DNA of 61,552 nucleotides, taken from positions 1 to 61,552 of the IMG/VR virus record IMGVR_UViG_3300029258_003188; one strand, written 5' to 3'. This stretch comes from a virus. Numbering within the stretch: position 1 is the first letter of the stretch; every line of letters starts with the position of its first letter. Positions 3,500-57,662 of the stretch are shown piece after piece. Under the pieces are notes generated by a model, which was not told where the DNA came from, searched no databases, and was given only the letters and a program-made list of their open reading frames with translations. A program made the translations under genes and the position numbers.

Positions 3500-3532
3500 A
3501 TTCGTTATTTTTGTTCGAAAGGAGATTTATTG

Positions 3533-3877
3533 ATGACAAAGCTTCCTGAGTGGAACGGTAAAGTTAAACACGTTAATGAGAAAAACTTCTCTGAGGAAGT
3601 GTTGAAAGAAAGGCGGCCAGTCTTGGTAGATTTCTGGTCGCCTTCCTGTGTACCGTGTAGAGTTATGATACCATCTGTAGAAAGCATCGTTGATAAGTAT
3701 AATGGTAAAGTTAAAGTTGTGTCAATAAATGTAGAGGACAGCCCTAGGTTAGCTTCGCGTCTTGGTATACAATCCCTGCCTAACATTCTGTTATTTTCTA
3801 ACGGAGAAGTACAGGGGCAGTTAATTGGCAGAGTATCCACTACTAAATTAGAGGGTGCTTTGTCACCATTACTATAA
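3533..3877 (+). CDS. Thioredoxin-like protein (CVPC active site)
   Basis: 114 residues from ATG at 3533; a TTG sits directly before it, and the AAAGGAG site at 3518 favours the ATG. The thioredoxin fold is shown by VLVDFWSPSCVPCR, then VKVVSINVEDSP, and the cis-proline loop in IQSLPNILLF. The active site is CVPC rather than the usual CGPC, which alters redox potential in known thioredoxins. It could reduce a phage or host ribonucleotide reductase or act as a polymerase processivity factor as in T7; nothing here decides. It is the only plus-strand gene in this replication cluster and overlaps the stop region of the nuclease gene opposite. Confidence 0.9.
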   Translation: MTKLPEWNGKVKHVNEKNFSEEVLKERRPVLVDFWSPSCVPCRVMIPSVESIVDKYNGKVKVVSINVEDSPRLASRLGIQSLPNILLFSNGEVQGQLIGRVSTTKLEGALSPLL

Positions 3878-5099: not shown

Positions 5100-5351
5100 A
5101 TGGGGTGTAGCATGTCAAGTCATGAAAAAAAATCTAGAGTTTCATCCGAAAAACGGTGGACCCTAGATAAATTAGCTTATTTTTTTATTCTAAGCGATGA
5201 AGAATTTTCGGAGAAATTTGGTGTGTCTGTAATCGCCGCCGAACGAGCTCGTCGGCGGGCTGGTATTAATAAAGTGAGGGGGGTCCTCCCCAACGAAGAG
5301 GAGAACCCCCCGAGATTGTGCAGTGAGGACATGCTATACTATTACGATTAG
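5100..5351 (+). CDS. Small HTH-like protein
   Basis: 83 residues. The section RWTLDKLAYFFILSDEEFSE followed by KFGVSVIAAERARRRAGI looks like a helix-turn-helix of the kind in phage transcription regulators and small terminase subunits. The start is uncertain: ATG 5100 has no ribosome site, while ATG 5112 has a weak GGGGTG four bases upstream. Its stop overlaps the stop of the ubiquitin-like gene on the other strand by three bases, so the two are convergent. Confidence 0.55.
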   Translation: MGCSMSSHEKKSRVSSEKRWTLDKLAYFFILSDEEFSEKFGVSVIAAERARRRAGINKVRGVLPNEEENPPRLCSEDMLYYYD

Positions 5352-5545
5352 CCTTTCTCTGCAGCAGGAGGCACAGCATGCCCGCAAGTATCGGAATCCC
5401 AGCGGACATAACCTCCACGATATTCGGGGAACAGACTGGAAATGCGCAACATCACCTGAGACTCAGTCTCACCAGCATTCATCTCGACAGGAATTTCAAC
5501 GTTCTCTGCTCCACGAGCGGTTAAAACATAAACGGTTCTGACCAT
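5348..5545 (-). CDS. Beta-grasp ubiquitin-like protein, PRTRC protein C-like
   Basis: 65 residues, strong AAAGGAGG before the ATG. The order is a beta hairpin (VRTVYVLTARGAENVEIPV), a helix (ESQVMLRISSLFPEY) and a strand (GGYVRWDS), which is the beta-grasp pattern, and it ends in EKG. PRTRC protein C, from memory, has the same SPEEV-xxx-YPEL-like helix and ends in GTKG. Position at the end of an operon with E1-, E2- and JAB-like genes supports a protein modifier whose C-terminal Gly is activated by the ThiF protein. The similarity is weak by eye, so structure prediction should decide. Confidence 0.6.
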   Translation of the reverse strand: MVRTVYVLTARGAENVEIPVEMNAGETESQVMLRISSLFPEYRGGYVRWDSDTCGHAVPPAAEKG

Positions 5546-5567
5546 CTACATATCCTCCTTTGGATTT

Positions 5568-5672
5568 TTACTTGTCCTCTTTCTCTGTCTTTGTGTTTTC
5601 TAGTGCACTTATTACTTGAATTGTTGCGTGAATTAGCGCCCCCACCACACTTAGTAATCTCAATACAGACAC
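5568..5672 (-). CDS. 34-residue peptide between E1-like and ubiquitin-like genes
   Basis: GTG start at 5672 with AAGGAGAT eight bases upstream, encoding MSVLRLLSVVGALIHATIQV and a charged tail. The first 25 residues are hydrophobic with some amphipathic character. It fills the gap between the E1-like and ubiquitin-like genes. No family recognised; translation is likely given the ribosome site. Confidence 0.5.
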   Translation of the reverse strand: MSVLRLLSVVGALIHATIQVISALENTKTEKEDK

Positions 5673-5699
5673 AATATCTCCTTGCTTTTATAGCTGGTA

Positions 5700-6944
5700 C
5701 TACTTAGTTCGTGTTGCCAGTTTTGATTCTGTAAGTTTTGACGTAAAACATACGTTTCCAGGTAGCCATGTCACTTCTGCTTTGTCGATTATCCTAGTTA
5801 ACGTCTGTAGATAAAGGACATAACTTGACAAGGCTGCCTTTATGGTTTCATTCAAAGTGCCAGTCAGTTTATCATCTTCCTCGCCGTTGTCGTACCCTTC
5901 TATAGGTCTATTTGTCAAGCTCCCACAGGTGAATGGTTCTACATTCCTAAAAGTGCTGAATATTCTAGCTTTATTTGGGCCTGATCTTATTACATATTGA
6001 TTAAGATGGGTATGACCCACTACTTGGTGGAGATTAAACTTAATACATTGGTCATTGAAAAGTGAAATATATGGTTTTACAACACAACCACTATGCTCTG
6101 TGAATGATGAAACTAGCTCTATAAGATTATAGATATTAGGATATAAGTTTCGCTTATTTCTTTGGCTAATCTTAGGGAGTAAGTACAACAACGAAAATTT
6201 GAACGGAGATAACTCTGACAGAAGCCACTTGAATATCCAGCTGCCGCTCTCGTCAATATTTACTGAGGCATTAAATGCAACGTTAGCACTAGGCATAACA
6301 TGCTGTATCTCCGGCTCATGAGTTTGAAAACCGGTATTACTTATACCATCTTTTTGATTGTATACTAGAAATGGTTTCTCTATTTCTTCACCTTCTAGTT
6401 TAGCGTTCATCAAGATGAAAGCCATAGCCCCAGCAATTATGTTTTGACTTGGAGAGCTAAATTGAATGCAGGTTAGACCACTATCTTTATCTCCACGCAT
6501 GAATATGTCTTCGCTTGGTCGCTGAGTTTTAGTATTTATAGAGGCATAGGCTCTGCCTATCTCAACACCGCAGTCCACCCACCAATGCCACTTACTTTCC
6601 GCGATCTCTTGTCTGGACTCTTTGTTGTCGACAGCTGATATAACGATGTCTGACTCACGAGGCTTATACCTTGAGATCTCATATTTGAACGGAATTTTGG
6701 GGGATGTGGCCTTATTATAGTAGTCACTTATAACTTTTGCTTTATGTTCTCTCAGCTTTAGGAAGGGTAGGTTTTGGTTAATTGTGTTTTTCTTTTCGAT
6801 GATGTCATCATCCCAGATTGTTATTTGTAAAGGCTTCTTTTCAGCAGCCCTTGCTAACATTGGCATTATCCAACTTCCGTTACCCCCAGCACCTACGAGA
6901 TCGACTGATATAATACTATTAGCTTCCGGTTTCTTGGAACTCAT
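5700..6944 (-). CDS. ThiF/E1-like adenylyltransferase, PRTRC ThiF-like
   Basis: 414 residues. The nucleotide-binding Rossmann loop is ISVDLVGAGGNGSWIMPMLA near residue 12; ITIWDDDIIEKKNTINQNL carries the acidic and Asn/Gln residues typical of E1 proteins; DIVISAVDNKESR holds the catalytic Asp. GLTCIQFSSPSQNIIAGAMA has a cysteine at the place where E1-like enzymes carry a thioester or metal-ligand cysteine, though the role is inferred. The protein would adenylate the C-terminus of a ubiquitin-like partner. It overlaps the JAB gene by 26 bases, so the two are translationally coupled. The C-terminal half is not recognised. Confidence 0.85.
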   Translation of the reverse strand: MSSKKPEANSIISVDLVGAGGNGSWIMPMLARAAEKKPLQITIWDDDIIEKKNTINQNLPFLKLREHKAKVISDYYNKATSPKIPFKYEISRYKPRESDIVISAVDNKESRQEIAESKWHWWVDCGVEIGRAYASINTKTQRPSEDIFMRGDKDSGLTCIQFSSPSQNIIAGAMAFILMNAKLEGEEIEKPFLVYNQKDGISNTGFQTHEPEIQHVMPSANVAFNASVNIDESGSWIFKWLLSELSPFKFSLLYLLPKISQRNKRNLYPNIYNLIELVSSFTEHSGCVVKPYISLFNDQCIKFNLHQVVGHTHLNQYVIRSGPNKARIFSTFRNVEPFTCGSLTNRPIEGYDNGEEDDKLTGTLNETIKAALSSYVLYLQTLTRIIDKAEVTWLPGNVCFTSKLTESKLATRTK

Positions 6945-7932
6945 CTTTCCTCCACTTTTCTAGTATATGTTCGATGTCGGTAACTTTAGAATCCGGATCT
7001 GTTGATGTCATGATTTCATTCACTAGCTCTTCAGCTAGCAATATCATGCTTGATTCTAAGCTATCTCCGACATAACCACCAAGCTCATTACTCAAATCAG
7101 CTAAAGTTTTTTGAGCTGTGTCATCGAACACGTCATCGTCTTTTATTTTTTTTTTTTTAGGAAGCCCGCACTTGTCTTTAGACTTAGATTTAAGGCTAGG
7201 GAACCCTCCCCCAAAGTAACTACCGAAGCTGTCTAAGTCCTCGCTCTTAAACCAATCATATGCGCCTGACCACGATCCAGTTTTAGAGGCTACTTCTACT
7301 TTATTCATCCATTCGCTTGGAAAGCTCCTCTCAAACACATCATATAAAGGAATCTTTACCGTTTCTCCTCTGTTAGCTGCCCGCAGAAAGATGTTGCTTT
7401 CTAGATTGCCAATTATCCCAAAAAGTCCGAAACTTCCACTTTCGTCGGTGTCATCTATTCCACTTGGGCTAGGGTCACTAGACCAAGGATGGGAATGGAA
7501 TTCAACAACAGGAATATCCTCTGGATAATCTACTACATACTCCCTGTCCCAAGAAGCTCTCGTCCCAGCTACGTCCAGATTTGGAACGTGTACCCAATAC
7601 TTCTCGTCTTTGATGTTGTACATGATTACCGCTCCAGCTTCTGTACCATGTTCAATATAAACTTCATGGAAGAATGACATTATTTGGATGAGGAGTTCAA
7701 TCGGTATCTTTTTGGTGGTTGTCACCCCACTTTTTAGCTCTTCTCCAGCTTCAGGGATATCTTTGGTAGGAAGTGTAATAATCATCGGGCCTTTCGGTCT
7801 AACCTCAACAAACCCGCCTTTAGTGATTACCAAATTCCTAATTGCGTTTGGGTCTATATCGTCTAACCGCTTACAAATGTTAACGATTTTTTGCGTCGGT
7901 ACATTCTTATCTTTGTTTTTGTCTTCGCCCAT
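6919..7932 (-). CDS. JAB/Mov34 metallopeptidase, PRTRC protein A-like
   Basis: 337 residues. The JAMM zinc motif is VVEFHSHPWSSDPSPSGIDD, with the upstream glutamate in HGTEAGAVIMY. Spacing between the second His and the Ser is one residue longer than in RadC-type motifs. FGLFGIIGNLESNIFLRAA follows, as in PRTRC protein A. Such enzymes remove or mature ubiquitin-like modifiers. An additional C-terminal region of about 130 residues is Gly/Ser/Asp-rich and of unknown role. AAAAGGAG precedes the start; the end overlaps the E1-like gene. Confidence 0.85.
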   Translation of the reverse strand: MGEDKNKDKNVPTQKIVNICKRLDDIDPNAIRNLVITKGGFVEVRPKGPMIITLPTKDIPEAGEELKSGVTTTKKIPIELLIQIMSFFHEVYIEHGTEAGAVIMYNIKDEKYWVHVPNLDVAGTRASWDREYVVDYPEDIPVVEFHSHPWSSDPSPSGIDDTDESGSFGLFGIIGNLESNIFLRAANRGETVKIPLYDVFERSFPSEWMNKVEVASKTGSWSGAYDWFKSEDLDSFGSYFGGGFPSLKSKSKDKCGLPKKKKIKDDDVFDDTAQKTLADLSNELGGYVGDSLESSMILLAEELVNEIMTSTDPDSKVTDIEHILEKWRKDEFQETGS

Positions 7933-7948
7933 TTATTTTTTTCTCCTT

Positions 7949-8530
7949 TTATCTTTCATTATACGCTTCGACTAAAGCTCTAATTGTAGTTCTAGACGCA
8001 TCGTGATTTTCTAGCTTCCTTAAATCAGTATCAGGAAAATAACCCGTAAAAGGTCTGCGTTTGAACTCCTCAAATATTTCATTTGGTTTATTTGGGAGAG
8101 GATCATCCCCAAAACAGATGGTAAATGCGCCAACCCAATTCGGTCCTGCTAGTGCAAACAAAGTTGTGTCTAGAGATAATGAGCTAATTTCTTCCTTAGC
8201 TATACCTCCCATTCGCACAAAGTTATCAGCTCCGTTAGACACCCAGACTGTGTCTGGGAGGGTTAAGGGGACGCGTATACTTTCACAAAGTACGTCGACA
8301 GTTTGCTCAGGAATCAAAGAGATATAACCTACGTTGTTTCTACCAGGAAAAATTCCAACGACGATAGGATCCAAGATCTCAGCTTCTCCCTTAACTTTTT
8401 CAGGGAACAGTTCAAGGAGGTTTTTGTTTTCTACAGGCCAAAATTTGACCTTTCCATCGACTGCTTTATAGATAATGGAATGATTCTCTCCGAATCTAAC
8501 TAAAGTTTCTGGTCCAATCGTTATATTCAT
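7949..8530 (-). CDS. E2-like protein, PRTRC protein B-like
   Basis: 193 residues. Recognition rests on pattern, not a firm motif: LPDTVWVSNGADNFVRMGG, then TLFALAGPNWVGAFTICFGD, then EIFEEFKRRPFTGYF, which parallel the WW-P, AL-RP, VC-G and W-FF-S-FTH series I recall for PRTRC protein B (prokaryotic E2 family D). C in TICFG would be the candidate thioester cysteine. It sits between the JAB gene and an unknown gene in the same operon and overlaps the latter by 4 bases (ATGA type). Confidence 0.55.
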   Translation of the reverse strand: MNITIGPETLVRFGENHSIIYKAVDGKVKFWPVENKNLLELFPEKVKGEAEILDPIVVGIFPGRNNVGYISLIPEQTVDVLCESIRVPLTLPDTVWVSNGADNFVRMGGIAKEEISSLSLDTTLFALAGPNWVGAFTICFGDDPLPNKPNEIFEEFKRRPFTGYFPDTDLRKLENHDASRTTIRALVEAYNER

Positions 8531-9090
8531 TTTGTATTCTCCCTTGTATTTTTCATCTCGGTTTTGATGCTGCTTACCAAGTTTTGATAAGAATCTCTAA
8601 ATGGGTAGAAGTTAACATTAATCGTCTTTTCTCCTCTAACTTCTATTTTTATTTTTTCTGGGATAACGGTGATGCCCTGGCCTGATTTAGAATCTTCAGC
8701 TTGAGGCACACGGAGAATGTTCAATTTTTCTCTGGCTCTACGCTTGTAACCTAGGCAAAAAGTGTAAGCCGGGAAATCTTGGACAAGTTTTTGATACAAT
8801 GCAGACTTAACATTGAGAATTCTCCTGTCTACTGTGCACCCACTTTCTATATCTGTTCCTATAAGCTCACAGACAAACCCATTAGTATAGGCTTTTTGTA
8901 AGATGTCGTCTATGCATGTTGATGTTTTTAAGATAAGGGCGAGATTTCTATAATCATTTCCGGATTGATTACTAACCCCTATTTCCGAAGCTGTAGGAGA
9001 GATAATCGCCTTTGATACTAGTGCAGGGGGACCATCTTTGGTTACGTATGTAGGCTCATAGGTCAAGACTGGGATTTCTCCTGTGATCAT
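8527..9090 (-). CDS. Hypothetical protein of the ubiquitin-like operon
   Basis: 187 residues, not recognised. It is mixed alpha/beta, with four cysteines spread out and a C-terminal part rich in beta strands (KIKIEVRGEKTINVNFYPF). It lies 13 bases downstream of the reverse transcriptase and overlaps the E2-like gene by 4 bases, so all are one transcript. It could correspond to another PRTRC component (for example protein E or F), but I cannot see shared motifs. Confidence 0.6.
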   Translation of the reverse strand: MITGEIPVLTYEPTYVTKDGPPALVSKAIISPTASEIGVSNQSGNDYRNLALILKTSTCIDDILQKAYTNGFVCELIGTDIESGCTVDRRILNVKSALYQKLVQDFPAYTFCLGYKRRAREKLNILRVPQAEDSKSGQGITVIPEKIKIEVRGEKTINVNFYPFRDSYQNLVSSIKTEMKNTRENTK

Positions 9091-9103
9091 TATTTTTGTC
9101 TCC

Positions 9104-10033
9104 TTATTGTGCTATTTTATCCAGGAATTTATTTGTGCCTTTGCTAAGGCGTAGGCGGTTATGGTGTGCGGCTCCCAACTTACCGTTTGAACTTTCATAC
9201 GTCAGTTTGTCAGAGATTGAATTTGCCCATGCAATAAGGCCGTCTTTGGTTGCTTCATCGCATTCGTTAATGTGGTTCAAAATTTCAGCCCTGCGCCACC
9301 TTGGTATGGAAACGTCGATTGCATCGTCATTAAAGGAGCAGACTAGTCCCATTACCTTGAGATGTGATCTTACGTTTATTTTCCTGGTTTTTTTCTTGTT
9401 GATAGCATACCCATAATCATTCATGATATAGTTGATTAGAGGCACACTCTCCCTAAAGTTATCTTCGTTATTGAACAAAATAAAATAATCATCAGCATAT
9501 CTTTCTAGCCTCAAAACTTTGTCACACAAACCGTGGACAAGCCTCCGGTCTAGATGCTCAGAGGCTAGTGAGCTGATAACCGGAGAGCTTGGAGATCCGG
9601 TAGGAAGACGACCATTATAGAAACAAATCTTGATTAGTTTATCAACCAGCTCCTCATCAAATCGTCTAATCAACATCTCCTTCTTAAACATATCTGAGGT
9701 TGTATTTTGGAAAAAGTCTTTGATGTCTACTCGGTAGAATACTGGGTTTTCTGGGAATGAATCATTAGTTTGATTAATACCATTCATAATAGAAAAGACA
9801 GCATCCAGATAGCATCTACCTTTGGAAAAAGCTTTATTCAACGTGGGGGTATAAACTTTAGTCAAATACTTAGAGATAATCTTTTGGACAGTGGCTAACC
9901 CTTCATTAGGAATTTCAAGCTTCCTAATCTTACCGTTGGATTGCTTAAACTTAGATATTCTATAGGAAATAAAGGTAGGCGGTATTTCCCAGTTTAGAAT
10001 CTCTGTGAACTTTTTCGGGACTTTTTTGCTCAT
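9104..10033 (-). CDS. Reverse transcriptase (retron/group II-like fold)
   Basis: 309 residues, only slightly larger than a bare RT domain. Motifs in order: FYRVDIKDFFQNTT (RT2), LPTGSPSSPVISSLA (RT4), LERYADDYFILF (RT5, catalytic YADD), INKKKTRK (RT6) and LKVMGLV (RT7). It starts with AAAGGAGGAA nine bases before the ATG, from a GGTATAAG promoter candidate at 10101-10108. It is the first gene of the operon that ends with the ubiquitin-like protein. No msr/msd-like RNA fits in the 70-base leader, and no template repeat is visible, so neither retron nor DGR can be claimed. Confidence 0.9.
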   Translation of the reverse strand: MSKKVPKKFTEILNWEIPPTFISYRISKFKQSNGKIRKLEIPNEGLATVQKIISKYLTKVYTPTLNKAFSKGRCYLDAVFSIMNGINQTNDSFPENPVFYRVDIKDFFQNTTSDMFKKEMLIRRFDEELVDKLIKICFYNGRLPTGSPSSPVISSLASEHLDRRLVHGLCDKVLRLERYADDYFILFNNEDNFRESVPLINYIMNDYGYAINKKKTRKINVRSHLKVMGLVCSFNDDAIDVSIPRWRRAEILNHINECDEATKDGLIAWANSISDKLTYESSNGKLGAAHHNRLRLSKGTNKFLDKIAQ

Positions 10034-10062
10034 TTTGTGTCTATTCCTCCTTTCATGAAACT

Positions 10063-13000
10063 ATGTTAAACTTACTAAGGAAAAGTTTTATAGCGAAATA
10101 CTTATACCATAATTTTATGACAGATAAAGTAAGGAATATAATCTCATATGAGAGTAATTATGAGGAACTAACTAAATCAGCTTTAGATTCTTACAAATCC
10201 CTTTTCCCTATAGAAACAATCAAAACTAAACTGGAGCTCCAAGATATTTGGGTTGATGATAATCTTAATGCCGAAGATTACTCAGCTCAAAAAGAAATTA
10301 AGGGGCAGAGGGGAAGCTGGACAGTTCCTATATACGGAAAGTTTAATCTAGTAGATAAGAGTACAGGCAAAGTTATTGAAAAGGTAAATAAATATAAGAT
10401 TAGTGACCTGCCTAAAGTGACCCCAAGGAACACATTCATTTGGAAAGGTGTTGAATATCAATCAGTTAACCTGCTTAGAAGAAAGCCTGGGGTTTATCTT
10501 AGAAAAAAGGAGTCTAATGAGGTTGAGGCTTTCTTTAATTTAGCTAAAGGGTTGAATTTTAAGTTTACGTATGACCCCTCAGATAGAAAATTTTCTGTTT
10601 TGTTTGGGACTAGAAGGATACCGGGATACTCATTATTAAAAGCTTTGGATGTACCTGATTCCCAGCTTAAGAGTGTGTGGGGAGATGAAGTCTATGCATC
10701 TAATTATAAAGAAGATGTATCTAAAGATATAGATAGAATTTACAATGTTGTTTTTAGAAAACCTATGTCCAGCAAGGAGGAAGCTAAGGAAGCTTTAAAG
10801 GAATACTTTTCTAAAACTGAGCTAGATCCTAATGTAGCTAAAGCTTTTATTAAGAAATCATACAAGAATGTTTCTCCGAGTGCTCTTGTTGATACAACAG
10901 TTGAGTCCTTGAATATTGCTAGAGGCAAATCTAAGCCATTGAATTCTGAATCATTATTTTTTAAAAGCTTTCATACGATGGAGGATTTTGTTAATGAATC
11001 GTTTAAGCAAGAAGGAAAGGAAATCCAAAGGAAGCTAAAGAGAAATCTATCTTTTAAGAAGGATCTAAATGATATCCTATATAGGCCAGCATTAGCGTCA
11101 CCAATTAAACGTCTATTCAGTCTTAATGTCGTTAGAACCCCAGAGCAAACTAATCCTCTACATATTCTTGATGAAACAATGAAGACTACTATTTTAGGTG
11201 AAGGCGGGATTCAAGACGAGCATCAGATAACTCTAGCTATGAGGGACATAGACCATACCAGCACTGGTTTCATTGATCCTATTCAAACTCCGGAGGGAAG
11301 CTCTGTAGGCATCATAAATTTTTTAACATTAGCTAGTGGAAAACGTGGGACTGAGATTGTTACTCCGTTCAAGGACATAAAAACAAATAAGATAGCAGAT
11401 TATAGTCCGGCTCAAATGGTAGATAAGGTTATATTGTTTCCTGGACAAACTGGAAGCACTAAGCTTAAGGCTATGAAGAACGGTGAAGTTCTGTATACTG
11501 ATCGTAAAAATGCTGACTTCGAATTCCCGGCTAGTGACCAGATATTTGGGGCGTCGTCTAACATGATACCGTTTCTACATTCTATCGGTGGTGGGCGTGC
11601 AGGGATTGCTTCTCGTTTCAGTTCCCAAGCAATTAGCCTTGTTAACCGAGAAAAACCTTTAGTAGCCGCTGCCATCGAAGGAAAACCTGTTACCCAGCTT
11701 TTTGGAGATGCTATTATTGAGAAAGCTCCAGTGTCGGGCAAAGTTTCTAGGGTAGGAAAAGATTTCATTGAGATTACTGACAATAAAGGTAAGAAACATA
11801 AATCTTTCTTCTACAAAGATTTTTATCTGAATGATAAGAATTATCTTGATAGTACCCCTGTTGTGTCAGAAGGTGATCAAGTTAAAGCTGGTGATCAGTT
11901 AGTAGAGCTTAATTATACCAAGGATGGGCAGCTAGCCTTAGGAACTAATCTCAAAGTTGGATATTTACCGTACTACGGTTTGAATGAACTTGATTCTATG
12001 GTAATTAGTGAAACAGCTTCTAAAAAATTAACATCTGAGCATGTTTATCAGTTTGACATCGAGCTAGACGAGGACTTACACACCAACTTGCAAAAGTACT
12101 CATCTTTGTATCCTAGCAGATTAAATAAAGATCAAAAAGAAAAATTAGATGCTAATGGAGTAGTCCAAGTTGGAGCTAAAGTTGAGCCGGGGGATACTAT
12201 TGCAGCATTGTTGAAGTACAGAAAGGATACACCCGAGGACCTGATTCTAGGCAGATTAAGTAGAGGCTTGGTTAATAGGTTTAAAGACCACTCGCTTAAG
12301 TGGGATAGAGTTGAACCTGGCGTAGTTTCAGATGTAGTGGTTGGGAAAAAGCATATTTCGATTTTTATTAAGTCTCAAGAACCTGCTAGGATTGCTGACA
12401 AGCTCAGTAATCTTTCTGCCGGTAAAGGAACAATAGGAGCTATTATACCAGATGACCAAATGCCTAAAGATAAAGAAGGTAATCCCCTTGAGATCTTACT
12501 GCCTCCAGCTGGAGTTATATCCAGACTAAATCCTTCTCAGCTTTATGAAACTATGGCTGGGAAAATTGCAAAGAAAATTGGCAAGCAGATTTTAGTTAAT
12601 AACTTCGAACCAAAAAACCAGTTTGAAGAAATTAACAAGATGATGAAGAAGTACAATGTATCTGACACTGAAACACTAATAGACCCTAAGACTAACAAGG
12701 AAATTAAAGATGTATTTACTGGTAACCAATACTTTTATAAGCTTAAGCACCAAGCCTTAGATAAAGCTTCGTCTAGATATAAGGGGGTGTACTCTGTACT
12801 GGATCAGCCTGTCAGGGGTGGTGCCGAAGGAAGTAAAAGCTTAGATGCTTTAACTTATTATTCTTTATTGTCGCATGGGGCAACATCATTCATCAAGGAT
12901 GTTATGCAGAAAAGTGAGAAGAATGATGACTTGTGGAGGGCGATCGAACTAGGGGAAACTCTCCCAGCCCCAAAGCCTACATTTGCCTACGATACATTCC

Positions 13001-16000
13001 AAGGGTATCTGAAGGCCATGGGTGTGAATCTTCAAAAACAAGGAAGAGAATTAAAGCTTCTACCGTTAACAAATAAAAACATCAAAGAAATGAGCAATGG
13101 TAAAATAGAAAAGGGGAAGATGCTAGACCGCAACCTCAGACCTGAGAAGGGTGGTCTATTTGATCCTGTTAAGACTGGTGGTCTTTTAGGTTCAGCTGAG
13201 AAATGGACGCATGTAGAGCTTAACGAGCCTCTCCCCAACCCAATCATGGAAAAGCCTATTACTGGTTTGCTAGGATTGACTGAAGCTTCTTACAATAAAA
13301 TAGTGGATGGAACATTATTTATAACCAGAGAAGGTTCAATCGTAGACAAAAGTACCCCTGGGGCGATAACTGGAGGAAAAGCTATCGAGAGACTTCTATC
13401 TAAAGTTGATTTAGATAAGGAGTACAAAGTAGCTTTGGAAGAAGCTAAAGGTAAAACTGGTTCTGATTTAGATAAGATAAACAGAAAGCTTAGATCAATT
13501 AGATCGTTAAAAACTCTAGGAATTAAAAATCCTGCTGATGCTTATATACTAAAGAATGTTCCTGTCATTCCCCCAAAAATGAGACCAATTTATCCTTTAC
13601 CGGATGGATCACTAGAAACATCTGATTTTAACTATCTGTATAGAGACATTATCCTGACAAATAATTTACTTAAGGAGTCTAAGGATTTAGAAGTTCCGGA
13701 AGCTCAGGAAAGGGATCTGAGGAATAATTTATATAGAAGCATAAAAGCTTTATATGGACTTGGTGACCCTATCTCAGGCTATTATCACAAGAAAACTGGG
13801 ATTCTTCCTATGATAACAGGGAGCTCACCCAAAGAGGGTTATTTCCAAAGCAAGCTACTAAGTAAAGAACAGGATTTAGTCGGCCGGTCAGTTATTATTC
13901 CTTCTGAAGATTTACATACAGATGAGGTCGGAATCCCAGAAAGATTAGCTTGGAATTTATTCAAGCCTTTCGTTGTTAGAGAATATACATCTAGAGGCTA
14001 CAGCCCCATTGAAGCCGTCCAAAAAATAGACAGTAGAGACCCGGAATCAAGGCGGTTTTTAGAGATGACAATGGATAAGCATCCAGTCTTACTTAATCGA
14101 GCACCCTCCTTGCATCGCTTTAGCATCATGGCGTTTAAGCCTAAGCTCAGTGAAGGGGAGGGGATGAAGATTAATCCTCTAGTTGCTACTGGATTTAATG
14201 CTGATTTTGACGGTGACGCTATGACTATTCATGTTCCGTTTTCCAATGAAGCTATTAAAGAAGCTTATACTATGCTCCCATCACAACATGTGATTAACCC
14301 TTCAACTGGAAAGTTTATGCTGATACCGCAAGAGGAATCTATGGCTGGAATTTATAAGCTAAGCTTAACTGCTGAAGGCAGAAAGAAACTAAACAGTGTA
14401 CTTCCAGCTTCTTATTATATTACTGAACCAATCAACAAAGGAAAGTTACAAAAGCTACTAACTGAAATAAGTGAGAAAGATCCATCTTCAGGAGCTATTA
14501 TAGCGGATAGTCTCAAGAAACTAGGAGATGAATACGCATATTCATCCGGGTACTCCTTCAAGTTTGAGGATTTAAGGCCAATAAAAAGGCCGGATCTTGT
14601 CGATAAATATATGACTAAAGTACATAAAACTGAGGATTTAAATGTGCGAGTTTCTCTTCTGCAACAGCTGACTACTGAACTAGATGCTAATCTACTAAAG
14701 AACAAATCTAATATGTTTGTTGAACAAACTTTAGCTGGAGTTAAGGGCAAGCTTGGAAATGCTAGGCAGATACTAACATCACCAGTAATGACACAGGATA
14801 TTGATGGGGCTCCGGTTCCAATCTTTATTGAGAAATCATATTCGGAAGGGTTATCCTTACCCGACTATATTGTAGCTAGTCAAGGTGCTAGAAAGGGTCT
14901 AGTTGATAAGGGGATTGAAGTAGCTGAACCTGGGAAGCTAGCTAAAGAGTTTGCTGCGGCAGGATTAGATTACAAAGTCACAGAAAAAGATTGCGGAGCC
15001 ACCCGTGGGTTGGTTCTCCCGATTAACAACCAAGACGTGCTCGATCGCTATTTAGCCGCTCCAGTTCACGTTGGAGGTAAGACTATAGCCAAAAGGAATC
15101 AGTTGGTAGATCCTGAACTAGTGCAGTTACTAAAGAAAAATAAGGTTACTAGTATAGAAGTTAGATCCCCGCTTTATTGTAAATCAGTATCTGGATCTTG
15201 CAGCATGTGTGCTGGGTTAGGTGCGGATGGACAAGCACCTAATGTAGGTGATTACTACGGAGTTTTTGCAGCCCAGGCACTTAGCGAGCCAGCTACCCAA
15301 GCAGCTTTATCTACTCCTCATAAAGGCGGTGTAGCCGGTACTGGATCCCCAGATTCAGGTTTAACTGGTTTAACCAAGATAAGAACATTACTAGAGATGC
15401 CTAAGAACTTTGCTGGCCAGGCAACCGTTGCTGAAAATAGTGGGGTAGTAAAAAGAGTCACTCAAACACCAGACTTGACTGAAATAGAGGTAGATGACAC
15501 CATGTACTCACTTCCTGGAAATACAGCAGTAGAGGTTAAAGAGGGTGACGCTGTAGCTAGAGGGTCACGATTAACGACCGGGTTAATTAATCCTAATGAT
15601 GTTTACAGGACTAAAGGGCTGCCTGAGATGAGAAATTACTTACGTGATGAGTTGCTAAATGCCTATAGATCAGAAGGAATACCAGTACGTTCTAACGTAG
15701 TAGAGAGTGTTGTGGCGGCGACAACTAAAGCTGGAGTAGTTAGGGATCCAGGCGATTCAGAATTCCTTCCAGGAGATTTTATTAGGATAGCTCAAGCTGA
15801 AGCTGAGAATGAAAAAAAAGAGCTTGAGCTTGATGTCTCGTCAGCTACAGGAAGAACTTTGATGGAGAACATCGGTCCAATTAGAGCTGGAACAGAAATA
15901 GATAATAAGATATCCAGAGAGCTTAAAGCCAACGGAGTAAAGAAAGTAAGGGTCAAACCAAATCCTATTCAGTACGATCCCTTTATCAGGGGGATTAGTC

Positions 16001-16143
16001 AAATACCACTAGCTAAAGAAGATTTTATGTCACGTTTAGGATATAGAGAACTTAAAAACACTATAGAGGAGGGGGTAGCTAGAGGATGGACATCAGATCT
16101 GGATGGGTACTCTCCTATACCACAATATATAACATCAGCTTAG
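10063..16143 (+). CDS. Fused beta-beta-prime DNA-dependent RNA polymerase
   Basis: 2026 residues. The first 1000 align with RpoB: NLLRRKPGVYL (cf. RSPGVYF), FIDPIQTPEGSSVG, GTNLKVGYLPYYGLNELDSM, LSAGKGTIGAIIP. From about 1025 it is RpoC-like: GGLFDPVK, VLLNRAPSLHRF, the metal-binding NADFDGDAM (1379-1387), a zinc motif CKSVSGSCSMC, and AAQALSEPATQAALSTPHKGG. The beta-prime N-terminal zinc ribbon is missing, and the total is well below the roughly 2750 residues of E. coli beta plus beta-prime. With the sigma factor at 48.5 kb it should make a phage transcription enzyme. ATG 10063 and ATG 10117 both lack a ribosome site, so the start is uncertain. No alpha or omega gene is seen. Confidence 0.97.
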   Translation: MLNLLRKSFIAKYLYHNFMTDKVRNIISYESNYEELTKSALDSYKSLFPIETIKTKLELQDIWVDDNLNAEDYSAQKEIKGQRGSWTVPIYGKFNLVDKSTGKVIEKVNKYKISDLPKVTPRNTFIWKGVEYQSVNLLRRKPGVYLRKKESNEVEAFFNLAKGLNFKFTYDPSDRKFSVLFGTRRIPGYSLLKALDVPDSQLKSVWGDEVYASNYKEDVSKDIDRIYNVVFRKPMSSKEEAKEALKEYFSKTELDPNVAKAFIKKSYKNVSPSALVDTTVESLNIARGKSKPLNSESLFFKSFHTMEDFVNESFKQEGKEIQRKLKRNLSFKKDLNDILYRPALASPIKRLFSLNVVRTPEQTNPLHILDETMKTTILGEGGIQDEHQITLAMRDIDHTSTGFIDPIQTPEGSSVGIINFLTLASGKRGTEIVTPFKDIKTNKIADYSPAQMVDKVILFPGQTGSTKLKAMKNGEVLYTDRKNADFEFPASDQIFGASSNMIPFLHSIGGGRAGIASRFSSQAISLVNREKPLVAAAIEGKPVTQLFGDAIIEKAPVSGKVSRVGKDFIEITDNKGKKHKSFFYKDFYLNDKNYLDSTPVVSEGDQVKAGDQLVELNYTKDGQLALGTNLKVGYLPYYGLNELDSMVISETASKKLTSEHVYQFDIELDEDLHTNLQKYSSLYPSRLNKDQKEKLDANGVVQVGAKVEPGDTIAALLKYRKDTPEDLILGRLSRGLVNRFKDHSLKWDRVEPGVVSDVVVGKKHISIFIKSQEPARIADKLSNLSAGKGTIGAIIPDDQMPKDKEGNPLEILLPPAGVISRLNPSQLYETMAGKIAKKIGKQILVNNFEPKNQFEEINKMMKKYNVSDTETLIDPKTNKEIKDVFTGNQYFYKLKHQALDKASSRYKGVYSVLDQPVRGGAEGSKSLDALTYYSLLSHGATSFIKDVMQKSEKNDDLWRAIELGETLPAPKPTFAYDTFQGYLKAMGVNLQKQGRELKLLPLTNKNIKEMSNGKIEKGKMLDRNLRPEKGGLFDPVKTGGLLGSAEKWTHVELNEPLPNPIMEKPITGLLGLTEASYNKIVDGTLFITREGSIVDKSTPGAITGGKAIERLLSKVDLDKEYKVALEEAKGKTGSDLDKINRKLRSIRSLKTLGIKNPADAYILKNVPVIPPKMRPIYPLPDGSLETSDFNYLYRDIILTNNLLKESKDLEVPEAQERDLRNNLYRSIKALYGLGDPISGYYHKKTGILPMITGSSPKEGYFQSKLLSKEQDLVGRSVIIPSEDLHTDEVGIPERLAWNLFKPFVVREYTSRGYSPIEAVQKIDSRDPESRRFLEMTMDKHPVLLNRAPSLHRFSIMAFKPKLSEGEGMKINPLVATGFNADFDGDAMTIHVPFSNEAIKEAYTMLPSQHVINPSTGKFMLIPQEESMAGIYKLSLTAEGRKKLNSVLPASYYITEPINKGKLQKLLTEISEKDPSSGAIIADSLKKLGDEYAYSSGYSFKFEDLRPIKRPDLVDKYMTKVHKTEDLNVRVSLLQQLTTELDANLLKNKSNMFVEQTLAGVKGKLGNARQILTSPVMTQDIDGAPVPIFIEKSYSEGLSLPDYIVASQGARKGLVDKGIEVAEPGKLAKEFAAAGLDYKVTEKDCGATRGLVLPINNQDVLDRYLAAPVHVGGKTIAKRNQLVDPELVQLLKKNKVTSIEVRSPLYCKSVSGSCSMCAGLGADGQAPNVGDYYGVFAAQALSEPATQAALSTPHKGGVAGTGSPDSGLTGLTKIRTLLEMPKNFAGQATVAENSGVVKRVTQTPDLTEIEVDDTMYSLPGNTAVEVKEGDAVARGSRLTTGLINPNDVYRTKGLPEMRNYLRDELLNAYRSEGIPVRSNVVESVVAATTKAGVVRDPGDSEFLPGDFIRIAQAEAENEKKELELDVSSATGRTLMENIGPIRAGTEIDNKISRELKANGVKKVRVKPNPIQYDPFIRGISQIPLAKEDFMSRLGYRELKNTIEEGVARGWTSDLDGYSPIPQYITSA
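10101..10108 (-). promoter_or_regulatory. GGTATAAG phage promoter candidate for the RT to ubiquitin-like operon
   Basis: Reads TGGTATAAG on minus. The ATG of the reverse transcriptase is 68 bases downstream. The site lies inside the first codons assigned to the RNA polymerase gene on plus, between its two candidate starts. Confidence 0.6.
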
Positions 16144-49667: not shown

Positions 49668-50477
49668 ATGTGTAAATTTTTCAGTTGTGACTCAGATGGT
49701 GATGGGAATTTACTATATTTTGATTGGGAGTTGAGAAAAAAGATATTGTCTGGGGAGATAAAGCAGTACGAACCAGACAGCCATACCTCAATAGCTCACT
49801 GGTTTGGGTTCGAGGGTGAGGAAGAGGATGTACTAAATAAATACGAATACAATCCCTTGACGAAGAAGTTTGTAATAGATCAGCTTAATGATACTATGGA
49901 TGATTCTATCATAGTAAAAGAGAAGCTGGATAATTTTGATTGGAAAACAATTGTAGAGCCGTTAATCATTAAGCCAATTATTCATCCATTCGAGATGGAT
50001 GCACCCGAAATTACTCCAGAAATAGTTGATTTAGTAAAAAAGTGGGCTTCGGTCAGGGATTCGATCAGGTATTCGGTCTGGCATTCGGTTGGGGCTTCGG
50101 TCAAGGCTTCGACCAGGGATTCGGTCGGGCATTCGGTCAAGGCTTCGATCAGGAATTCGGTCGGGGATTCGGTATGGGCTTCGGCCTGGGATTCGGTCTG
50201 GCATTCGGTTTGGAATTCGGTCGGGGAGTCGGTCTGGTATTCGGTCGGGGTTCCGGCCCGGAAGTCGATCAGGCATTCGGTTTGGAATTCGGTCGGGGAT
50301 TCGACCGGGAATTCGATCGGGGCTTACTTTTCATCTTTCTTTGATATTGATTACAAACACGATCTGTCTCCTGCAATCAAATTGTGGGAAATGGGATTAG
50401 TTCCGTCCTACGACGGGGAAGTATGGAGGCTGCACGGTAAGCCAAACGGTAAGGTATTATGGGAAGGGACAATCTAA
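49668..50477 (+). CDS. SVxx tetrapeptide-repeat protein, copy 1
   Basis: 269 residues from ATG 49668 (GGGAGGGG upstream). N-terminus MCKFFSCDSDGDGNLLYFDW, a helical middle, about 23 tandem tetrapeptides of the type S-V-W/G/R-D/H/N/A (residues 127-218), then AYFSSFFDIDY and a C-terminal domain WRLHGKPNGKVLWEG. The paralogue at 54515 shares all parts. Trp/Ser repeats would form a regular beta or helical rod. Similar repeats occur in phage and metagenome proteins of unknown role. Confidence 0.7.
   Translation: MCKFFSCDSDGDGNLLYFDWELRKKILSGEIKQYEPDSHTSIAHWFGFEGEEEDVLNKYEYNPLTKKFVIDQLNDTMDDSIIVKEKLDNFDWKTIVEPLIIKPIIHPFEMDAPEITPEIVDLVKKWASVRDSIRYSVWHSVGASVKASTRDSVGHSVKASIRNSVGDSVWASAWDSVWHSVWNSVGESVWYSVGVPARKSIRHSVWNSVGDSTGNSIGAYFSSFFDIDYKHDLSPAIKLWEMGLVPSYDGEVWRLHGKPNGKVLWEGTI
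50042..50330 (+). repeat. 12-bp coding repeat array, copy 1
   Basis: About 23 units of the form TCGGTCNGGGAT. No stop occurs in several other frames, so long false reading frames appear on both strands. Confidence 0.85.
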
Positions 50478-51810: not shown

Positions 51811-51913
51811 ATAAGGGATAGGGATAGGTGAAATCAAAATAATTATCAATCATATTATACGCTGTAATGAATATTGAATAGTACATAGACAATACTTATT
51901 AGGAGGGAGAGAA

Positions 51914-52555
51914 ATGGAAATAAGAAATAGATTTACCAATGAAATTATCGTAGAAGGAAAAGATTTGCAAGATTGTATTAAGAAAAGAAAAGACTTGAGG
52001 GGTGCATTCTTGGGGGGTACATTCTTGATGGATGCATACTTGAGGGACGCAAACTTGAGGGATGCATACTTGAGGGGTGCAAACTTGGGGGGCGCAGACT
52101 TGAGGGGCTCAGACTTGAGGGGTGCATTCTTGCTGGACGCAGACTTGAGGGGTGCATTCTTGAGGGGTGCATTCTTGAGGGATGCATACTTGAGGGGCGC
52201 AAACTTGGGGGGCGCAGACTTGAGGGGCTCAGACTTGAGGGGTACATTCTTGAGGGATGCATACTTGAGGGGTGCAAACTTGGGGGGCGCAGACTTGAGG
52301 GGCTCAGACTTGAGGGGTACATTCTTGAGGGACGCCTACTTAAGGGACGCAAACTTGGGGGGCTCAGACTTGGGGGACGCATACTTGAGGGGCGCAGATT
52401 TGAGGGGCTCAGACTTGAGGGGTGCAAACTTGAGGGACGCAGACTTGAGGGACGCAAACTTGGGGGGCTCAGACTTGAGGGGACGCAGACTTGAGGGGTG
52501 CATTCTTGAGGGGTGTGTACTTGAGGGGTGCAAACTTGGGGGGGCGCAGACTTGA
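51914..52555 (+). CDS. Pentapeptide-repeat protein (C-terminus frameshifted)
   Basis: 213 residues. After a short lead (NRFTNEIIVEGKDLQDCIKK) come about 34 pentapeptides A(D/N/F/Y)LRG/D, a right-handed beta-helix. Near 52481 an extra G shifts the repeat frame, so the end reads GRRLEGCILEGCVLEGC instead of A-x-L-x-x, and the frame stops at 52553. The repeats are encoded by a 15-bp DNA repeat. Some pentapeptide proteins mimic DNA and block gyrase; that role is not shown here. Confidence 0.75.
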   Translation: MEIRNRFTNEIIVEGKDLQDCIKKRKDLRGAFLGGTFLMDAYLRDANLRDAYLRGANLGGADLRGSDLRGAFLLDADLRGAFLRGAFLRDAYLRGANLGGADLRGSDLRGTFLRDAYLRGANLGGADLRGSDLRGTFLRDAYLRDANLGGSDLGDAYLRGADLRGSDLRGANLRDADLRDANLGGSDLRGRRLEGCILEGCVLEGCKLGGAQT

Positions 52556-52958
52556 GGGACGCAGAAATCTTTTTTCAACCTGATCTTTATATACTTAAAT
52601 CCCTTTGGGGGCAAACTCACTGTTTGGAAATATACGGTTGGCGACAAGACACCCTATCAAACTGCGGTTTATGAGGTTGGTAAGGATTATAAAGAAGATG
52701 AGCTTGATACCAATGAGCTTGAAGCGTGTGGTCAGGGGTTAAATGTGGCTACCTTACGATGGTGCTGGCAAGATTCTAATGGCAAAGATAGTGTAAAATT
52801 CTTGAAGTGTGAGATTTGAGGTAAACTCTCCCGATGATATTGTAATTCCTCTCAATACCGAGGGTAAATTCAGGGTAAAGAAACTGAAAGTGATTGCTGA
52901 ACATACAAGAGAAGATGTTGAGAAGATGCTGCTGGGGTATTCAAACCCAAGGAGATAA
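52556..52958 (+). pseudogene. Frameshifted C-terminal domain of the pentapeptide protein
   Basis: In the same frame as the upstream gene, coding resumes after the TGA: NLIFIYLNPFGGKLTVWKYT and onwards to KDSVKFLK; then a one-base shift near 52808 leads to VRFEVNSPDDIVIPLNTEGK, ending with stop 52956. This looks like the usual C-terminal domain of such proteins. At least three single-base shifts (G-run near 52537, T-run near 52570, near 52808) break it. Either decay or indel errors. Confidence 0.65.
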
Positions 52959-54514: not shown

Positions 54515-55312
54515 ATGTGTAAATTTTTCAGCTGTAATTCAGATGGTGGTGGAGAGCTGTTCTATTTTAATTGGGAGCTTCGCAAGAAGATGCTGTCTGG
54601 TGAGATAAAAAATTACGAACCGGACTCCCACACGTCCATAGCTGACTACTTCGGTTACAAAGGGGAAAAGGAAGACTCGATGAACAAATACGAATACAAC
54701 CCCCTGACTGGTAAGTTTGTGATTGATCAACTAAACACCACTGACGATAATAGGATTGTTCAAAAGCAACTAGATAATTTTGATTGGAAAACAATTGTAG
54801 AGCCGTTAATCATTAAGCCAATTATTCATCCATTCGAGATGGATGCACCCGAAATTACTCCAGAAATAGTTGATTTAGTAAAAAAGTGGGCTTCGGTCAG
54901 GGATTCGACCAGGAATTCGGCCAAGGCTTCGGTCAGGGATTCGACCAGGAATTCGGCCTGGGCTTCGGTTTGGGATTCGGTCTGGAATTCGGTCGGGGAT
55001 TCGGTCGGGGATTCGGTCTGGCATTCGATCAGGGATTCGGTCGGGGATTCGGTCTGGCATTCGATCAGGGTCTCTGCCTGGGCTTCGGTCTGGAATGCGG
55101 TTTGGGATTCGGTCTGGCATTCGGTTTGGGATTCGGTCTGGTATTCGGTCAGGGCTTACTTTTCATCTTTCTTTGATATTGATTACGGATATGATTTCTC
55201 CCCGGTGGTTAGATTGTGGGAGATAGGATTGGTTTCATCTTTTGATGGGAAGCTATGGAGATTGCATGGTAAGCCAAACGGTAAGGTATTATGGGAAGGA
55301 AACTTAACTTAG
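54515..55312 (+). CDS. SVxx tetrapeptide-repeat protein, copy 2
   Basis: 265 residues from ATG 54515, spaced seven bases from AAGGAGG and matching the start of copy 1. Same layout as the protein at 49668: MCKFFSCNSDGGGELFYFNW, about 22 S-V-x-x units, AYFSSFFDIDY, WRLHGKPNGKVLWEG. A 136-bp stretch (54773-54908) is identical to 49929-50064, while the units beyond differ in number and order. Confidence 0.7.
   Translation: MCKFFSCNSDGGGELFYFNWELRKKMLSGEIKNYEPDSHTSIADYFGYKGEKEDSMNKYEYNPLTGKFVIDQLNTTDDNRIVQKQLDNFDWKTIVEPLIIKPIIHPFEMDAPEITPEIVDLVKKWASVRDSTRNSAKASVRDSTRNSAWASVWDSVWNSVGDSVGDSVWHSIRDSVGDSVWHSIRVSAWASVWNAVWDSVWHSVWDSVWYSVRAYFSSFFDIDYGYDFSPVVRLWEIGLVSSFDGKLWRLHGKPNGKVLWEGNLT
54886..55155 (+). 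repeat. 12-bp coding repeat array, copy 2
   Basis: About 22 units TCGGTCNGGGAT, with different unit order than copy 1 but identical flanks. Confidence 0.85.
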
Positions 55313-56652: not shown

Positions 56653-57057
56653 ATGTCGTTTAGCTGTACGGATAAGTACCTAACTACTGATTCGAGAGAA
56701 TTAGCACATATTTTATTTGAGAACTCTCTGAATAGCATGCTTACAGGTGTGAATCTAGTTCAGTCGCTGGTAAGGTTGCTGCAAGCAACAGAGAAACCAG
56801 CAAAACTAATTGAAATTATAAGATTACTAATCTCAGCAATTATTCATAAGATTAATGATCTGCAAACACATGTCTATAAGTCAGAAATGATTGAATCTGG
56901 ATCCGGGTCAGGGATGGTTGCGATAAATAAGTTTTTTGTCATATCATCCTTGAGTAGTTTAGTTGAATCACTAGAATCTATGTATAGATCTTATAACTCA
57001 GAAAGAGTACTTAGTAGCGAGGGAATGCTTTTCCCGGCTAGAATAGTTAATTACTAG
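56653..57057 (+). CDS. Small protein with MLFPAR tail, paralogue A
   Basis: 134 residues; GGGAGG upstream. Residues 10-51 (LTTDSRELAHILFENSLNSM and on) are identical to the next protein because of a 125-bp DNA repeat. The tail is SSEGMLFPARIVNY. Function unknown. Confidence 0.55.
   Translation: MSFSCTDKYLTTDSRELAHILFENSLNSMLTGVNLVQSLVRLLQATEKPAKLIEIIRLLISAIIHKINDLQTHVYKSEMIESGSGSGMVAINKFFVISSLSSLVESLESMYRSYNSERVLSSEGMLFPARIVNY
56681..56805 (+). repeat. 125-bp exact direct repeat, copy 1
   Basis: Identical to 57124-57248, in frame in both genes. Confidence 0.95.
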
Positions 57058-57065
57058 GAGTAATC

Positions 57066-57662
57066 ATGCCAGTATCATTAGAAGATCTGGAGGCATACTT
57101 GGAGCAAATACCTAAGGAAAGATTAACTACTGATTCGAGAGAATTAGCACATATTTTATTTGAGAACTCTCTGAATAGCATGCTTACAGGTGTGAATCTA
57201 GTTCAGTCGCTGGTAAGGTTGCTGCAAGCAACAGAGAAACCAGCAAAAATGTGGTTTTACTTTAGAGGTTACCGCTACGAAGATTTACCTCTAGATGGAA
57301 CAGCACTCAATTATTGTTATGAAGTACCTCATGCAATTGTAAGCAGCTTATCTGATGAACTATTTGGGGAATCACTAGACAGTATATATTCTGGAGTAGA
57401 CAACATGTCTGAGCTTGTCTCTAAAGTGATAAAGCTAAAAGAGCCTAGTAAAGTAGTTGAATTTATTAAATTAATAGCTGCCTCCCTAGCCTTTAAGCAA
57501 GACGATCTAAGAACAAACCCTACAAAGTATGTAGAGAACACTAATTTTCTACTTTTAGAGAGATTCGGCCCAGATAATATCCAGATGGTTTTACGGAATG
57601 AGGCAGATGCCCTAGTGCATATAATCGAGACATACAGCTCTGAGCGGTTAACCCACAGCTAG
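57066..57662 (+). CDS. Helical protein, paralogue B
   Basis: 198 residues. MPVSLEDLEAYLEQIPKERL then the shared block, then a unique part (FYFRGYRYEDLPLDG, ELFGESLDSIYSGVDNMSEL) that itself resembles the shared block (D-E-L-F-G-E-S-L-D-S-I-Y-S-G-V), so the gene has an internal duplication. No KLFP tail; ends YSSERLTHS. Confidence 0.55.
   Translation: MPVSLEDLEAYLEQIPKERLTTDSRELAHILFENSLNSMLTGVNLVQSLVRLLQATEKPAKMWFYFRGYRYEDLPLDGTALNYCYEVPHAIVSSLSDELFGESLDSIYSGVDNMSELVSKVIKLKEPSKVVEFIKLIAASLAFKQDDLRTNPTKYVENTNFLLLERFGPDNIQMVLRNEADALVHIIETYSSERLTHS
57124..57248 (+). repeat. 125-bp exact direct repeat, copy 2
   Basis: Identical to 56681-56805. Confidence 0.95.

Follow-up and report, generated by a model that had tools for sequence, protein, structure and literature searches.

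The virus record IMGVR_UViG_3300029258_003188, analysed over positions 1-61,552 (the whole stretch of 61,552 bases, hereafter the window, which may be incomplete), carries a minus-strand operon that probably encodes a phage-borne ubiquitin-like protein (Ubl) conjugation system of the bacterial type 6d or PRTRC kind, by which target proteins would be tagged. This reading is supported by the homology of an E1-like enzyme, a JAB peptidase, the E2 family and the Ubl, by the predicted fold of the Ubl, by retained residues, by the order of the operon and by the recurrence of the module in phages; the module is also recurrently linked to a reverse transcriptase (RT). The viral nature of the record is given by genes for a terminase, a major head protein and a head protease. 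Type 6d and PRTRC systems are known from bacteria and plasmids; what is new, with respect to the open papers searched, are complete phage-borne sets and a recurrent RT partner. No open paper was found on complete Ubl-E2-JAB-E1 sets carried by phages or on RT linkage, in a search that did not cover subscription papers and preprints.

Layout of the operon

A preliminary description of this DNA had proposed one operon with an RT, an unknown protein, an E2-like protein, a JAB peptidase, an E1 and a 65-residue protein. All six open reading frames (ORFs) were present at the positions given there, with operon-like spacing. Read from 10033 down to 5348, the operon and its terminator comprise the following features:

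9104-10033, minus strand: RT of 309 residues, retron-like group (RVT_1, retron-type models, motifs)
8527-9090, minus strand: orphan protein of 187 residues (no convincing family, no relative in 154 loci)
7949-8530, minus strand: E2-like protein of 193 residues (window-free E2 profile, alignment)
6919-7932, minus strand: JAB/JAMM metallopeptidase with an N-terminal domain, 337 residues (Prok-JAB, PRTRC_A, window-free profile, motif table)
5700-6944, minus strand: E1/ThiF-like enzyme of 414 residues (ThiF, PRTRC_ThiF, window-free profile, motif table)
5568-5672, minus strand: possible 34-residue ORF with a GTG start, membrane-helix-like, between E1 and Ubl, which may not be a gene (sequence)
5348-5545, minus strand: Ubl of 65 residues, beta-grasp, with a flexible tail ending in PAAEKG (AlphaFold2, phmmer, profile)
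5278-5311, minus strand: terminator hairpin closing the operon just after the Ubl gene (14 pairs, 10 of them G-C)

Thirteen nucleotides (nt) separate the RT gene from that of the 187-residue protein, which overlaps the E2-like gene by 4 nt; a gap of 16 nt leads to the JAB gene, JAB and E1 overlap by 26 nt, and the 154-nt gap between E1 and Ubl holds the possible small ORF. The span first attributed to the operon (5348-10108) stood at its start, 5348, but its end at 10108 reaches into a divergent RNA polymerase gene (10063-16143, plus strand), and the operon begins at 10033, leaving 29 nt between the starts of the RT and polymerase genes. A second contig (L001/L003) carries the whole gene set, and its E1 is 100% identical to that of the window.

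The E1-like enzyme and the JAB peptidase

Profiles of E1, JAB, Ubl and E2 were built from other phages and plasmids with the window excluded (window-free profiles) and run against the 805 ORFs of the window, where each ranked its own window protein first. The values for the E1-like enzyme and the peptidase were E 1.2e-25 and E 5.5e-33, respectively. The E1-like enzyme also matched Pfam ThiF (1.6e-8) and, as its best NCBIfam match, PRTRC_ThiF (2e-13), while the peptidase matched Pfam Prok-JAB (6e-6) and NCBIfam PRTRC_A (0.0018); the two PRTRC matches, obtained in the model search that the preliminary description had suggested, lie below the curated cut-offs. The identities that it had given to these two proteins were borne out.

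The motif table shows that the peptidase retains Glu98, His146, His148 (of the HSH motif), Ser157 and Asp160, JAMM residues that are retained in all 38 rows of the table; one additional residue in a loop of the window protein is common to locus L072. The E1-like enzyme retains the GAGGNG Gly-rich loop, Lys68, Asp106, VDN and Cys159. That this enzyme matches ThiF models as well could point to a sulfur-carrier pathway of the ThiS/MoaD type instead of protein tagging, a possibility that we consider very improbable given that an E2-like protein and a JAB peptidase accompany it, that Ubls occur in tandem in relatives, and that its scores with the ThiF-type models of NCBIfam fall far below cut-off.

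The ubiquitin-like protein

Structure prediction had been proposed as a test of the 65-residue protein encoded at 5348-5545, which had been taken to be ubiquitin-like. AlphaFold2 gave a beta-grasp fold, strand-strand-helix-strand-strand with a loose tail (predicted local distance difference test score, pLDDT, 85); among solved structures it comes nearest to ubiquitin variants, UFM1, protein G and protein L. With a best Foldseek E of 0.2 and a best Z of 5.4 these matches score modestly, which is usual for a domain so small. When the protein was searched with phmmer against 32,967 ORFs, its best non-self match (E 0.014) was the Ubl of another phage module, L044, which occupies the Ubl position there and ends in ATKG. 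Both lines agree with the proposed identity. The protein is 29% identical to the L044 Ubl and 30% identical to that of L047.

A Ubl profile that includes L044 ranked the window protein first of the 805 ORFs with E 8.7e-4, a value that is partly circular because L044 had been the best match of that protein; the cleaner figure is E 0.023, again at rank 1. The first Ubl profile, made from seven distant Ubls, missed it, and only profiles with closer phage Ubls found it. Neither PF14454 nor PF14460 matched in the window, and Pfam Prok_Ub did not match the 65-residue protein.

The E2-like and orphan proteins

Since the 193-residue and 65-residue proteins had no database match of note, relatives were collected from phages, plasmids, viral contigs and bacterial genomes; two of the alignments, A1 and A3, proved unsuitable for scanning owing to their diversity. 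With a profile of 37 other E2s, the 193-residue protein ranked first of the 805 ORFs at E 0.0051. Its stretch DTTLFALAGPNWVGAFTICFGDDPLP aligns with the E2-family motif PFPNxYxxGxxCxGxN. The candidate catalytic residue is Cys139 (8116-8114), with Asn131 eight residues earlier (Asn-x7-Cys) and Gly141, and classical E2s share this spacing in their HPN-x7-C motif. Pfam Prok-E2_D is matched by 18 of the 24 members of the E2 alignment (best 9.9e-21) and, in the Pfam search, not by the window protein; a sequence search of the PDB with the E2 family returned nothing. The structure model of the protein is fairly confident (pLDDT 81) and gave one strong match in BFVD, the nameless A0A7R7G2H5. Family match and active-site spacing make this protein a candidate E2.

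The 187-residue protein had no convincing family match and no relative in the 154 loci scanned. A helical protein precedes E2 in other modules, and its profile did not match the orphan, which was rejected as its counterpart.

Recurrence in phages and plasmids

The scan of 154 loci recovered Ubl, E2, JAB and E1 in order in about 30 viral loci, some of them near-copies, and elsewhere E1 with JAB, or E2 apart. Gene order in these other modules is Ubl-(other genes)-E2-JAB-E1, and their Ubls, some of which are in tandem, end in GTKG, GNKG or ATKG. Loci L043 and L050 had a Ubl that was missed by the profile, but a short ORF ending in GDKGC or GELG lies in the Ubl position.

Two named isolates belong to this set. 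Salmonella phage Arash (OQ632216; L004) encodes E1, JAB and E2 as gp246c, gp247c and gp248c. Its annotation misses a Ubl gene at OQ632216.1 180516-180713 on the minus strand, whose product of about 65 residues ends in TGTKG; gp251c is annotated there in another frame. Vibrio phage D69 has the order triple Ubl, two further genes, E2, JAB and E1, and its E2 matches Prok-E2_D at 3.6e-5. Its gene 0307 (L017 12295-13086; OZ195729.1 177294-178085) encodes three tandem Ubl domains, each ending in TGTKG, a phage 'polyubiquitin'; with three Ubls in one protein, a processing peptidase is therefore needed. Plasmid pANACY.02 shows the same order, E2-JAB-E1, with a Prok-E2_D match of 1.9e-42, and the arrangement is that of the type 6d operons (PMC1779556).

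The gene dnaN lies near the module in MT835919 and in two plasmids; in MT835919.1 (L006 13024-14921) a DnaN-like sliding clamp gene directly follows E1. By analogy with PCNA, the Ubl might conceivably tag the sliding clamp. In the crAss-like phage cr126_1 (MT774391.1; L008 7405-10791), genes for ThiF, for a metalloprotease and for a protein whose HSH...PCLG stretch resembles an E2 active site follow one another among replication genes (primase, helicase); they may form another, divergent Ubl system of phages.

The divergent neighbour of the operon is a single protein of 2026 residues (10063-16143) in which beta and beta-prime domains of RNA polymerase are joined. Viral contigs often encode relatives, about 30-37% identical, and so do D69 and Arash, where the protein is split. 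Among the contigs collected for these relatives (L075-L153) no module lay near the polymerase, and an E1 match was found in only 2 of 38 such contigs, from which it follows that module and polymerase do not move as one block.

The reverse transcriptase and its linkage to the module

That an RT leads the operon, as had been described, was established by a Pfam RVT_1 match of 8.4e-19 to its first gene (10033-9104). The protein matches the St85-type retron RT at 2e-31 and PADLOC RT_II-A at 8.5e-36; its YADD motif is intact, NAxxH is absent, and VTG reads VMG.

When 35 records with the module were searched along whole contigs with PF00078, 11 proved to have an RT. In 10 of them it shares the strand of the module and is no more than about 10 kb away, the distances ranging between 0.3 kb (L050) and about 9 kb (L025); the eleventh RT (G026) is far off. 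By comparison, an RT occurs in 1 of the 38 contigs collected for relatives of the RNA polymerase, which were not selected for the module (Fisher p 0.002, window excluded), and the 31 bacterial type 6d loci, 416 kb in all, have none. When each lineage is represented by a single contig and the window is excluded, the combined probability that the RTs would lie so close is 6e-5, a value that assumes uniform positions, counts lineages by hand and ignores contig ends. Mapped on the tree, the RT label changes at least six times, several of the rows that lack an RT being contig ends where one could not show. The RTs of other modules are retron-like and about 20-24% identical to that of the window. 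In L050 the RT (8680-9489) has YVDN in place of YxDD, because of which it may be catalytically dead. Two viral contigs with the module have genes for transfer-messenger RNA (tmRNA) close to the RT, at L158 365-770 and L162 201-654.

Because the RT and RNA polymerase genes start only 29 nt apart, there is hardly room for a retron RNA in the window. The Rfam search recovered no retron RNA near the window RT or the other module RTs, and the leader between the two starts folds no better than shuffled sequences. On these grounds, and for want of NAxxH, a retron was rejected. A diversity-generating retroelement was rejected as well, with no direct repeat pair of at least 45 nt in the first 27 kb.

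These patterns bear on an alternative in which the module serves attack or protection by tagging proteins that belong to rival phages, to plasmids or to the defences of the host, much as phage tails are tagged by bacterial Bil systems, and in which the RT adds a second defence gene, of retron-like type, to one shared cargo island. In its favour, retron-type RTs and ubiquitin-like systems are both established anti-phage parts (PMC10097602), at least six lineages have an RT next to the module, and the window RT groups with those of retrons. We nevertheless hold this alternative to be unlikely, since neither a retron RNA nor a toxin partner accompanies the RT, whose leader is as described above, and since the modules of other lineages lie among structural or replication genes, outside cargo islands. 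The RT may be either a functional partner or a neighbour that is often re-acquired. It is conceivable, if doubtful, that the Ubl system is coupled to it, the RT or its complementary DNA sensing the state of the infected cell and triggering tagging or being controlled by it. If so, the linkage in at least six phage lineages would reflect function and not chance.

Proposed mechanism and targets

In the cascade that we infer from these sequences, the ThiF-like E1 would adenylate the C-terminal Gly of the 65-residue Ubl, which would be loaded on Cys159 of E1, transferred to the E2-like protein at Cys139 and finally joined to lysines of target proteins. The JAB peptidase would remove the tag and, in relatives, split tandem Ubl precursors.

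Proteins of the phage itself that act in replication, transcription or the virion are the most likely targets, although we propose them tentatively. They are favoured because the module adjoins replication or transcription genes in the window, MT835919, the two plasmids and, for a more distant gene set, cr126_1, and structural genes in Arash and D69, and because the virion mass-spectrometry table of Arash lists Gp246-Gp249 (PMC10585845); the argument from gene context and virion table is circumstantial. Host proteins are possible but doubtful targets, rival phages or plasmids are unlikely ones, and we consider it more unlikely still that no conjugation takes place.

Several observations weigh against a working cascade of this kind. 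The arginine of the RQ motif, which aids adenylation in MoeB and ThiF, is Asn56 (6779-6777) in the window E1, giving NQ against RQ in all 37 other rows. The Ubl ends in AEKG and so lacks the Gly that almost every relative carries four residues from its end. Structure searches of the PDB with the 193-residue model recovered no E2; of the E2-like identity proposed in the preliminary description, the profile match and the Asn-x7-Cys spacing stand, but an E2 fold was not retrieved. Finally, virion detection in Arash may be carry-over, which is the view that its authors take of enzymes generally (PMC10585845).

The lost arginine and the altered tail, together with a PFTGYF sequence in the window E2 against FNxD in relatives and the second longest end branch (4.69) in the tree of E1 and JAB, where the placement of the window has no support, could also mean that decay or change has affected the cascade of this phage, with an E1 that activates the Ubl poorly and proteins that act by binding alone, or with an E1 that works with a host partner. 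This appears unlikely, as all other catalytic residues of E1, JAB and E2 are retained in open frames and the same set occurs on the second contig. Given one conserved Arg lost and the long E1/JAB branch, the E1 is likely, but not certain, to be active.

Bacterial ubiquitin-like systems are known mainly as anti-phage defence, a picture that is reversed by a phage family with complete systems, two named isolates among them. Type 6d and PRTRC systems were predicted in 2006, and the open papers searched report no function for them. Encoded by a virus, such systems can be deleted and their targets identified, and the effect of a deletion on phage yield or competition lends itself to direct measurement. 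Two fields meet in the recurrent pairing with retron-like RTs, which can be tested by single deletions.

Comparison with known systems

Type 6d operons, described in bacteria by Iyer, Burroughs and Aravind in 2006, comprise a Ubl, a helical protein, an E2-like protein, a JAB with an N-terminal domain and an E1; phage tail genes with Ubl and JAB are also known (PMC1779556). The window shares with them the four core parts as separate genes (the E2 as a candidate), the long N-terminal region of JAB and the small Ubl with its C-terminal Gly. However, its set is phage-borne, the Ubl comes last and not first, an RT stands first, the E1 Arg is lost, and the orphan protein takes the place of the helical one.

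PRTRC cassettes (PRTRC_A, B, C, E, F, ThiF and ParB) provide the best models for the window E1 and JAB, and the Ubl resembles PRTRC C, but the scores stay below curated cut-offs. The module had been called PRTRC-like and ubiquitin-type. Its four core parts, ranked first by the window-free profiles, sustain that name, while ParB-family and F proteins had no match with E up to 10 in the record as available. The window module is a phage form of type 6d/PRTRC systems without ParB and F.

The modules of Arash and D69 are likewise phage-borne sets of Ubl, E2, JAB and E1 in genomes with the same kind of RNA polymerase; unlike the window, they place the Ubl first, have two extra genes before E2 and keep the standard E1 motif, and no RT was found anywhere in either record. 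The window RT resembles those of retrons (St85, RT_II-A) in group and length, but lacks a detected noncoding RNA, the NAxxH motif and a known retron effector. Bil and Cap2/Cap3 of CBASS (cyclic-oligonucleotide-based antiphage signaling systems) share Ubl-type chemistry, and the window E1 is weakly similar to BilD (1.3e-5). However, the E1-E2 models of PADLOC describe E2 fused to E1, whereas E1, E2 and JAB of the window are separate and of another family.

Other features of the record

On one side of the operon lie genes for a PolA-type DNA polymerase, an exonuclease and a Cas4-like nuclease, on the other the RNA polymerase gene, and the record also encodes a sigma factor. At 3530-3877 on the plus strand, opposite to the adjoining nuclease gene, an ORF that starts with TTG is thioredoxin-like (CVPC). 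An exact direct repeat of 125 nt occurs at 56681-56805 and 57124-57248, with starts 443 nt apart. Genes whose proteins consist of repeated units of 15 nt and 12 nt, along with two paralogous genes about 4.8 kb apart, were noted at 51901-52560, 49984-50403 and 54840-55259.

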